A DNA stretch of 35,475 nucleotides from the NCBI GenBank assembly GCA_017307205.1, contig JAFKGN010000172.1, positions 1-35,475 on the forward strand. The letters are read 5' to 3'. This stretch comes from Caulobacterales bacterium (GTDB taxonomy: Bacteria > Pseudomonadota > Alphaproteobacteria > Caulobacterales > Caulobacteraceae). Made by a program: the position numbers and the translations under genes. This document shows, piece by piece, positions 15,710 to 19,496 of this stretch (positions are counted from its first letter, which is position 1; each line of letters starts with the position of its first letter). A model generated the notes under the pieces. The model was not told the DNA's origin and did no database searches. It saw only the letters and a program-made list of their open reading frames with translations.

Positions 15710-17506
<1,797 letters not shown>

Positions 17507-17869
17507 AAGACCCGCGCCGGAGCCCCCGCGGGCGATTTCGCAGAACGCTGTGCGAAACTCGGCAAGCCCCTGAAATCTCTACACGACTCGCGGCGCCATC
17601 CACCGCTTCTGCACAGCTTTTGCGCCGGCATGTCCACCGGCGTTCGCGGCTGGGCCATTGTCGAAAATCCGGGTCCGGAACATCCTCAACCCGTCGAGAG
17701 GACATCGCGGCGCGGCCCACCAGGGAAACCCGGAAAGGCAAGCGAACGAGGGCCAAGCCGGCGCCGCTACCGAAGGTTCACCCCTTCAAGTGCGCCGCCG
17801 AGCAACGGCAGGGATCGGCAAGCGGACGCGAGGGAGACCCCGCGAAGCGCACGGACCCGAGGCTCGGCA

Positions 17870-17960
17870 GAGTTTCGAAGGCTTCGGCTGGAGGGCTCAA
17901 AACGGACCATCGCGGCTTCGGTCGCGACGCTCCGACGAGTTTCAAAGGCTTCGGCCAGAG
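17870..17960 (+). repeat. Duplicated hairpin module with TTCG loops
   Basis: A 24-nt segment (17870-17893) recurs at 17937-17960 with three differences, 67 nt later. Both copies share GAGTTTC, AAGGCTTCGGC and a final GAG. Both can fold into an outer stem (GAG.../...CTC) around a short stem capped by TTCG. Between them lies CGCGGC-TTCG-GTCGCG (17911-17926). The differing bases in the inner stem (GGC/GCT against GGC/GCC) keep pairing possible. Confidence 0.6.
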
Positions 17961-17970
17961 AACTCGGGCG

Positions 17971-18017
17971 AGGGGCGAGGCCGCCGGGCAACCGGAAGCC
18001 TCGCCCCTTTCTCGTTT
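17971..18017 (+). terminator. Intrinsic terminator ending the candidate RNA
   Basis: An 11-bp stem (17971-17981 AGGGGCGAGGC with 17998-18008) is followed by TTCTCGTTT. Inside the loop a second stem CCGG-GCAA-CCGG (17984-17995) carries a GNRA-type tetraloop. The T-rich tail is only on the plus strand, so it ends transcription from the left (uup or an independent RNA), not the minus-strand gene at 18022. Confidence 0.7.
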
Positions 18018-18021
18018 AGGC

Positions 18022-18333
18022 TTACTGGTTGCTCGGCGCGGGCGCCGGAGCCGGCATGCTCGGCGGCGCGACGTTGTCGGCCGCACGGTTGGCGGCGCCG
18101 GCCACGCTGCCGGCGGCTTCACCCACACTGCCAGCCGCGTCCGCCACCGCCCGCGTGCGCAGGGCGTCGTTCTGGCTGTTGCTCCACAGGAAGTAGCCGC
18201 CGACCGCCACGGCGACCAGCAGGACAAGGGCGATCAGCACGCCGCCCATGCCGCCACCGCCGCCTTCGCGTTCGATAACCGTGGTGTGGGGGGCGGTATC
18301 GGACTCCGTCACGCGTTCGACTGTCTTCGTCAT
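18022..18333 (-). CDS. Small single-pass membrane protein, unknown function
   Basis: A protein of 103 residues. It has an acidic/polar N-terminus, a run of five glycines, a single membrane helix (about 33-52, VLIALVLLVAVAVGGYFLW), then an alanine-rich amphipathic tail with repeated AAGSV/AAG units and a Pro/Ala-rich end. Positive-inside reasoning does not give a clear orientation. I chose ATG 18333 because GGGAG lies 7 nt upstream; the open frame continues further upstream but without support. I do not recognise the family. It converges on the terminator of the candidate RNA. Confidence 0.75.
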   Translation of the reverse strand: MTKTVERVTESDTAPHTTVIEREGGGGGMGGVLIALVLLVAVAVGGYFLWSNSQNDALRTRAVADAAGSVGEAAGSVAGAANRAADNVAPPSMPAPAPAPSNQ

Positions 18334-18482: not shown

Positions 18483-19496
18483 ATGAGAATCGGCAAAATC
18501 CTGATCGGCGCGGCGCTGGCGGCCTTGGTCGCGGCCTGTTCGCCCAAGGCGCCGGAGCAGGCGGCCGACGGCGCGGTCGCCATCCGCTTCGCCACCGATT
18601 GGCGGGCCCAGGCCGAACAGGGTGGCTTCTACCAGGCCTTGGCCACCGGCGAGTACGAGAAGCGCGGTCTCAAGGTCACCATCATCCAGGGCGGCCCGGG
18701 TGTGAACGTGCCGCAGCTGGTCGCCGCCGACGCGGTCGAGATGGGCATGGGCTCCAACAGCTTCATCGCCATGAACCTGGCGGCCGAAAAGGCCCCGGTG
18801 AAGGCGGTCGCCGCCTTCATGCAGAAAGACCCGCAGGTGCTGATGGCCCACCCGGGCATGGGGGTGCGCTCCATCGCCGATATGAAGGGTCGCCCGATCC
18901 TGCTGTCCGACGCCTCGGTCACCGCCTTCTGGGTGTGGCTGAAGGCGAAGTACGGGTTCACCGACGCCCAGGTGCGCAAATACAACTTCAATCCCGCGCC
19001 GTTCATTGCCGAGAAGAGCGTGATCCAGCAGGGCTATGTGACCAGCGAGCCCTACACCATCGAGAAGATGGCCGGCTTTAAGCCCGCCGTCTTCCTGCTC
19101 GCCGACGAGGGATACCCCGGCTACGCCACCATGGTGCTGGCCTCCGACAAGCTGATCGCCGAGCATCCGGACGCCGTGCGCGCCTTCAATGAGGCCACCG
19201 CCGCGGGCTGGACCAGCTACCTGCACGGCGACGCCAAGCCGGGCGACGCGCTGATCATCCAAGACAATCCGGAGATGACGCAGGACCTGCTCGACCAGGC
19301 CCGTGAGAAGCTGCGCCAGTACGAGATCATCGAGGGCGGCGACGCCAAGACCCAAGGGATCGGCGTAATGACCGACGCCCGCTGGAAGACGTTCTTCGAC
19401 GTCGCCTCGGCCCAGGGCGTCTATCCGAAGACCCTGGACTACAAGAGCGCCTATACCCTGGCCTTCCTGCCCAAGCCCCCCGCCTCGGCCCCGTGA
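18483..19496 (+). CDS. NMT1/SsuA-type substrate-binding lipoprotein, orphan
   Basis: A 337-residue periplasmic binding protein with a lipoprotein signal (lipobox LVAAC, C19), so it should be anchored to a membrane. The fold matches the NitT/TauT/THI5-like family: a GGPGVNVPQLVAADAVEMGM segment and, later, SEPYTIEKMAGFKP. Such proteins bind sulfonates, nitrate, pyrimidine precursors or similar small molecules for ABC importers. No permease or ATPase gene lies nearby, so the partner must be elsewhere. Its stop overlaps the GTG of the ELM1-family gene. GGAGGG precedes the ATG by 6 nt. Confidence 0.9.
   Translation: MRIGKILIGAALAALVAACSPKAPEQAADGAVAIRFATDWRAQAEQGGFYQALATGEYEKRGLKVTIIQGGPGVNVPQLVAADAVEMGMGSNSFIAMNLAAEKAPVKAVAAFMQKDPQVLMAHPGMGVRSIADMKGRPILLSDASVTAFWVWLKAKYGFTDAQVRKYNFNPAPFIAEKSVIQQGYVTSEPYTIEKMAGFKPAVFLLADEGYPGYATMVLASDKLIAEHPDAVRAFNEATAAGWTSYLHGDAKPGDALIIQDNPEMTQDLLDQAREKLRQYEIIEGGDAKTQGIGVMTDARWKTFFDVASAQGVYPKTLDYKSAYTLAFLPKPPASAP

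Follow-up and report, generated by a model that had tools for sequence, protein, structure and literature searches.

6S RNA (RF00013) is a standalone, structured bacterial RNA that binds protein; it forms a single long hairpin with a central bubble and is about 160-200 nt long. The raiA, OLE, ROOL and GOLLD RNAs, which were found through covariation, are large and intergenic, and their functions are not evident from sequence. RNAs of the CsrB/RsmZ type, which are sponges for CsrA, combine several purine-loop hairpins with a terminator. Promoters of the EcfG type have the consensus GGAAC...CGTT. The Caulobacteraceae also have a standalone regulatory RNA gene of their own, GsrN; in the sections of PMC5869019 that deal with its homologues, these have a conserved C-rich 5' loop, typically lie near ecfG/nepR/phyR and are counted among the sigma-EcfG-regulated sRNAs.

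The RNA that we describe here is encoded in the window, as we call the whole stretch of 35,475 nucleotides that was analysed, and it resembles these systems in different respects. Like 6S RNA it would be a standalone, structured RNA that may bind a protein, but the core proposed for it is branched. Like raiA, OLE, ROOL and GOLLD it is a large intergenic RNA recognized by covariation, with no function evident from its sequence; in contrast to them, it has no Rfam match, it has a strict promoter and a terminator of its own, and its strong matches fall within one bacterial family among the genomes searched. Several purine-loop hairpins and a terminator are shared with the CsrA sponges. However, a family search that detected CsrA in three of 14 control genomes found no match in any of the 12 genomes tested, among them the window's own at 79% completeness, and a CsrA sponge was rejected on this ground. 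Compared with GsrN, as portrayed in those sections of PMC5869019, it too is a standalone RNA gene of the Caulobacteraceae and might likewise be regulatory. However, its first loop is of the GNRA type (GAAA/AAA-type) and not C-rich, it adjoins uup/NMT1 or ppx, and its promoter is TTGC-N17-NANNNT, with a conserved -35 TTGC, instead of a sigma-EcfG promoter. Among the papers listed in searches of an open-access library, none describes this RNA in its title or in the opening of its abstract. We rate it as a new RNA family of a broad known kind, the standalone structured bacterial non-coding RNAs.

The gap that follows uup in the window covers 515 bp (17507-18021), from the uup stop (17506) to the stop of a convergent gene (18022). 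The genes concerned are the following (R1 and R3 are covariance models and A1 is an alignment, all described below).

15710-17506, plus strand: uup, encoding an ABC-F ATPase, upstream neighbour; Pfam ABC_tran and ABC_tran_CTD; best NCBIfam match Uup, below cut-off
17693-18017, plus strand: proposed non-coding RNA gene, about 325 nt; R3 match start, R1 match at 17934-18024, relatives in A1
18022-18333, minus strand: small glycine-rich gene, convergent, ATG at 18333, no Pfam or NCBIfam match
18483-19496, plus strand: gene for an NMT1/THI5-like substrate-binding lipoprotein (PF09084, E 4e-26), by synteny a recurrent downstream neighbour of the RNA

By eye, the product of the small convergent gene looks membrane-anchored; the gene ends 5 nt from the RNA tail.

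Sequence comparison leaves us highly confident that the 515-bp gap carries a conserved non-coding RNA gene. The best explanation of 17693-18017 is a standalone gene that would be a divergent member of a Caulobacteraceae RNA family absent from Rfam. The comparison places both ends in the family; it also shows a promoter of rigid form, helices that covary in relatives, an intrinsic terminator, no reading frame in common and, in Phenylobacterium, a second locus at which the RNA and the adjacent gene are convergent. The start of the gene is deduced from the promoter and the model, its end from the terminator. A preliminary description of this DNA had placed a structured RNA at 17640-18018. Conservation, covariation and a conserved promoter inside the gap bear out the structured RNA, but that start is about 50 nt too early: the RNA appears to begin near 17693, preceded at 17640-17692 by the promoter and other upstream DNA.

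When the window's genome and 60 relatives were searched at the DNA level, eight of the 61 genomes gave a match, the window's own included, and the other seven belong to the same genus. Most of them matched the terminator only; one (G028) matched window positions 17686-17748 and the terminator, in order. Alignment A1 consists of nine loci (L002-L008, L023 and L036), with the window left out and with RNAs of about 245-250 nt. In the structure derived from it, hairpins H1, H2 and H3 belong to a core closed by a helix P1, after which come H4 and the terminator H5. Of the cells in A1, 96.0% pair, against 90.0% in shuffles. Two-sided changes occur at 19 pairs, against 9.3 in shuffles and at most 6 in slid controls, over which structures derived from or hand-fitted to the counted alignments are favoured. 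A2, in which 21 Caulobacter sequences were aligned by fitting them to R1, has 33 such pairs compared with 15.9 when shuffled, and a covariation score of 0.291 compared with 0.151. For A4 (53 Phenylobacterium sequences in a plain MAFFT alignment, the structure being placed by hand after the Caulobacter one) the figures are 26 against 13.1 and 0.215 against 0.117. None of 500 shuffles reached the two-sided counts of A1, A2 or A4, or the covariation scores of A2 and A4. Conservation and compensatory changes in relatives had been named as checks in the preliminary description; homologues do recur in related genomes, and covariation in their alignments does exceed that of shuffles. Motifs of the form GG-GNRA-CC occur on average 3.23 times per RNA, as opposed to 0.15 times in composition shuffles, and three times in the window.

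The promoter and the proposed parts of the window RNA are these.

17658-17663, plus strand: -35 element TTGTCG; homologues have TTGY at -35, at an equal distance to 17693
17681-17686, plus strand: -10 element CATCCT, 17 nt after the -35 element, with A17682 and T17686
17693-17700, plus strand: 5' strand of P1, GUCGaGAG, with seven complementary pairs to 17930-17936
17706-17748, plus strand: H1, the conserved 5' hairpin, stacked short helices with GGGAAACC at the tip (R1, R2, R3, alignment A5)
17827-17844, plus strand: apical hairpin of H2 with a GAGA loop, GGGAGACC (R1 local match)
17870-17898, plus strand: extra UUCG hairpin, a near-copy of H4, in an insertion seen only in the window when compared with nine relatives
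17910-17927, plus strand: UUCG hairpin in the H3 position (sequence and minimum free energy (MFE) fold), assigned to H3 by its order only
17930-17936, plus strand: 3' strand of P1, CUCCGAC, pairing with the 5' strand
17937-17965, plus strand: H4, a UUCG-capped hairpin directly after P1 (R1 alignment)
17971-18017, plus strand: terminator, GCAA-looped stem 17971-18008 and tail TTTCTCGTTT; homologous terminators covary

TTGY stands exactly 35 nt upstream of the model 5' end in 69 of 74 homologues (21 from Caulobacter, 53 from Phenylobacterium; left out are the window copy and the seven further Caulobacter members that score less than 66 bits), and in all 69 of these A-11 and T-7 are invariant. 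By eye, four of the five exceptions (L077, L080, L112, L133) have a model start that lies 1-2 nt into the RNA, and the spacer of the fifth (L060) is 16 nt long. Counted from 17693, the window shows TTGT at -35, A-11 and T-7. Recognition of the sigma70 -10 element depends chiefly on A-11 and T-7, and the promoter of the window RNA looks sigma70-like. A simple consensus scan listed no promoter and a single terminator-like site, on the minus strand; it missed both plus-strand signals, which are non-canonical, with a GC-rich -10 element and an interrupted U-tract. A promoter pattern fitted to Phenylobacterium matched none of 75 Caulobacter genomes, though 30 of them have an R1 match; hence the pattern is too strict and says nothing about absence of the RNA.

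In the window the RNA has diverged, and in its middle, between about 17750 and 17925, where the extra hairpins lie, it does not align with the relatives. A terminator-led match is no proof of membership, and for this reason model R3 was built for the window from the 5' domain alone (30 sequences, window excluded), alongside R1, built from A1, and R2, built from the 53 Phenylobacterium sequences of A4, whose places come mostly from the top of the family R1 match list. R3 locates the family 5' domain, G(U/C)CGARAGG followed by H1, at 17693-17755 (37.3 bits; within the window E is 1.7e-6, against 0.25 for the next match), and this is the best match in the whole genome (E 1.1e-4). The 3' part, H4 and the GNRA-looped terminator, is found by R1 at 17934-18024 with 47 bits (E 3.3e-11 in the genome), more than the 24.7 bits that R1 attains at best in 384 other genomes sampled across the class; R2 gives it only 24.4-24.5 bits, no better than ordinary gene-end terminators. 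Together R1 and R3 recognize both ends of the window RNA, in order and on one strand.

Individual parts differ in how well they are marked. H1 scores 15.3 bits (E 0.0011) with R1 and 14.1 bits with R2, and by eye two of its pairs are swapped when compared with the Caulobacter consensus of A1, which leaves the stems intact. For H2 the local R1 match (17825-17848, model positions 73-96) reaches no more than 5.4 bits (E 0.95). The proposed structure is weakest at P1, for which the case is covariation in relatives, where the helix varies between U-A, U-G and C-G. It lies outside the MFE fold of the window RNA (-156.2 kcal/mol without it, -153.2 with it imposed, a cost of 3.0 kcal/mol) and within that of four of the nine seed RNAs. 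H4 appears as a full hairpin in the MFE fold of 17640-18018; the fold of 17693-18017 has its apical part only. The segments 17852-17898 and 17919-17965 form a direct repeat of 47 nt, 77% identical, with a UUCG hairpin in each; this is a hairpin duplicated locally within the RNA, and the nine relatives lack the stretch in which it lies. The loops named in the preliminary description are all present (cTTCGg at 17883-17886, 17917-17920 and 17950-17953, GCAA at 17988-17991), as is the terminator with a T-rich tail that it had reported.

The density of stem-loops had been called hard to explain by GC content alone. Folding energy by itself is only moderate evidence: 17640-18018 folds at -181.1 kcal/mol (z -2.76, none of 100 dinucleotide shuffles being equally stable), and 17693-18017 at -156.2 kcal/mol (z -2.49, 3 of 200 shuffles equally stable). 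It is conservation and covariation, beyond folding energy, that make the structure more than chance. A protein-coding gene was rejected. The open reading frame at 17630-18019, for 129 amino acids, has no Pfam family, and gaps in the alignments of relatives break the frame, internal pairwise gaps being multiples of 3 in only 6-14%, as expected of non-coding sequence.

The family is found chiefly in two genera. R1 matched 135 of 390 genomes of the bacterial family, in four of 22 genera: 82 Phenylobacterium (g30), 30 Caulobacter (g1), 22 genomes of g16 and one of g23. The 30 Caulobacter genomes, out of 75, comprise 20 scoring 154-263 bits (nine of them seed sources), one with 87 bits, eight with 42.8-65.1 bits, the window among these, and one (G061, 23 bits) that was discounted as a match to the terminator only. 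At least four g30 genomes (G311, G316, G390 and G405) match R1 weakly, with E 2.6e-7 to 9.9e-5. A pattern scan of named genomes gave 17 stretches, 11 of them titled Caulobacter, including Caulobacter ginsengisoli DSM 18695 (L097). One metagenome-assembled genome (MAG) labelled Brevundimonas vancanneytii (L099, CAMAVA010000002.1) carries a Caulobacter-type RNA, and its label looks wrong. Another MAG has two full-length copies (L103 and L105, on G029:C32 and G029:C3; 259.9 and 247 bits), which may be either a duplication or a mixture of strains. A virus-borne element was rejected, as the 26-base exact core pattern, which detects close copies only, had no match in viral contigs.

Low scores call for caution. 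Six weak R2 matches (L165-L170, 23.4-42.9 bits), from the window's genome, two other Caulobacter, one Phenylobacterium (two matches) and one g16 genome, were rejected as further copies, being located at the ends of protein genes, all six with terminators that have GNRA-like loops. These GC-rich terminators follow genes that by eye are rpsI-like, TonB-receptor-like and others, and they mimic matches to the RNA models; L171, at 92.2 bits with R2, is a true copy. Since R2 scores gene-end terminators at up to 42.9 bits, terminator-led matches, those in g16 included, are weak evidence, and the R1 matches in the 23 genomes of g16 and g23 suggest membership less strongly than the others. R2 also gave 24.7 and 28.5 bits in two genomes counted as lacking the RNA (G082 and G063). 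Across the order R2 matched 55 of 398 genomes, 16 of them outside the family with at most 36.2 bits, and among 384 other genomes sampled across the class R1 had two matches, of 24.7 and 23.1 bits. We take the R2 matches outside the family and the two class-wide R1 matches for the same gene-end-terminator artefact. The g16 matches inspected are terminator-led, at about 38 bits. Three g16 loci (L081-L083) share the promoter and have an NMT1 gene 0.5-1.8 kb further on, and for these reasons are probable members. R3 had no significant match in four g16 genomes and six other Caulobacter genomes, nor in four genomes with what we call type B (G009, G013, G024, G083) and three with type C (G015, G091, G093); the best score in this whole set was 23.5 bits (E 0.2). 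By eye, type B (L061-L064) and type C (L065, L066, L068) have a similar promoter, L065 lacking T-7. Types B and C and g16 are thus only probable members of the family, on terminator score, promoter and synteny. Type C looks like a third RNA type, with a 5' domain of its own, a similar promoter and terminator, uup upstream and NMT1 downstream.

The genes around the RNA fall into two main settings among 89 loci, a number that includes the window's own and four places fetched twice. At locus A (53 loci) the C-terminal part of uup and/or an NMT1/THI5-like gene lies alongside, at locus B (20 loci) genes of a ppx neighbourhood; 16 loci have neither, some because of short flanks. Four genomes (G313, G355, G321 and G315) have one copy at each locus, and 34 of the 82 Phenylobacterium genomes have two R1 matches, not all of them confirmed as two genes. 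Among 18 Caulobacter genomes chosen for having no R1 match, all 18 have the NMT1 gene, and in 12 of them no RNA-like segment was seen in the approximately 650 nt upstream of it. Neither was one seen in the approximately 700 nt after uup at 15 loci, three of which come from genomes carrying the RNA elsewhere. Absence of the RNA from Caulobacter genomes that lack an R1 match is supported at these two loci only.

How, then, might the RNA act? We lean, somewhat guardedly, towards a mechanism in trans through a bound protein, and the complete statement, a non-coding RNA gene of a divergent family acting in this way, is the best explanation and in our judgement somewhat more probable than not. The suggestion that the RNA is instead the leader of the NMT1/THI5-like transport operon, a riboswitch or attenuator ending in a regulated terminator, might draw on locus A, where NMT1 is often co-directional downstream. 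In the window, however, a convergent gene separates the RNA from NMT1, and no co-transcribed gene lies directly downstream. Of the six long loci of the B type, four (L070, L077, L078, L088) have a convergent gene next to the RNA, and in the other two (L072, L075) the next recognized gene is convergent as well, 2.1 and 4.0 kb away. At one locus (L086) NMT1 is 4.6 kb from the RNA, and the R1-negative Caulobacter retain NMT1 without an RNA upstream in the 12 inspected. Convergent neighbours and NMT1 retained without the RNA led us to reject a cis leader, which we consider improbable; locus B, the window and the distant NMT1 genes exclude a general role in cis, which is the reason for proposing action in trans. 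The gap could also be just an ordinary GC-rich 3' region of uup that has a strong terminator but does nothing as an RNA. The modest z values (about -2.5 to -2.8) and the GNRA-like loops of all six gene-end terminators mentioned above would fit, but the conserved promoter and covarying internal helices would not, and homologues adjoin genes other than uup too. Such a reading is hard to square with the 5'-domain match of R3 and the covariation, and we give it hardly any credence. Almost as little goes to the idea that the gap holds a copy, much diverged, of an RNA family already described. Divergence within the new family is rapid, so that homology could escape detection; on the other side, Rfam 15 (4227 families) gave no gathering-threshold match, either anywhere in the window or in relatives, for which 28 locus records were scanned (8 + 20; L062 and L084 overlap, leaving 27 places), well-conserved copies included. 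RNase P, tmRNA and SRP RNA were rejected on these searches, and seven matches of a permissive scan of 17400-18100 were dismissed as all far below gathering scores. 6S RNA is likewise excluded at the locus, a separate 6S match being found in 12 of 12 genomes (10 of them above the curated cut-off), in the window's own at G000:C38. The covariance-model search suggested in the preliminary description matched no known family, in agreement with its statement that the RNA could not be matched to RNase P, tmRNA, SRP or 6S RNA.

The main rival is a base-pairing sRNA acting in trans, whose folded body would protect it and whose short single-stranded parts would pair with target mRNAs. An own promoter and an intrinsic terminator, as in many bacterial sRNAs, would suit this, as would the C-rich H4 loop (CCCCCAAC) found in 32 of 53 Phenylobacterium copies; that loop, however, is not common to the nine Caulobacter seeds, which have UUCG or GCAA there. 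Moreover, the RNA is long (245-325 nt) and much of it is paired, and neither A2 nor A4 contains an unpaired run of at least 5 nt with every column at 90%. We hold base pairing to be rather unlikely, while giving it more weight than the other alternatives. Since no such run exists, and since A2 conserves GNRA loops as well as short internal loops of purines, the RNA would work through its structure and not through a seed.

The protein-binding mechanism that we favour could then proceed as follows. The housekeeping holoenzyme would transcribe the gene from about 17693. The transcript would fold with P1 closing a multibranch core of H1, H2 and H3, H4 and the terminator coming after it. It might act in trans as an RNA-protein particle or a protein-binding RNA, in which recognition would take place on a surface made up of the GNRA-capped arms and the conserved H1 domain at the 5' end with its internal loops of purines. 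The middle part is variable and would form a tolerant periphery, enlarged in the window by the hairpin duplication. It is a more tentative suggestion that we are dealing with a class of GNRA-rich multibranch RNA, not described before, that forms a dedicated ribonucleoprotein of the Caulobacteraceae, occupies two loci in part of Phenylobacterium, can freely gain or lose hairpins, and has no copy at either syntenic locus in a set of Caulobacter genomes.

That an RNA family covaries, has so nearly invariant a promoter and is matched by R1 in 82 Phenylobacterium and 30 Caulobacter genomes speaks for a function, not named in Rfam, that is being maintained. Although Caulobacter serves as a model genus, no such RNA was seen in its R1-negative members at the two syntenic loci inspected. 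A cultured and named carrier exists in Caulobacter ginsengisoli DSM 18695, so that direct experiments on this RNA are possible.
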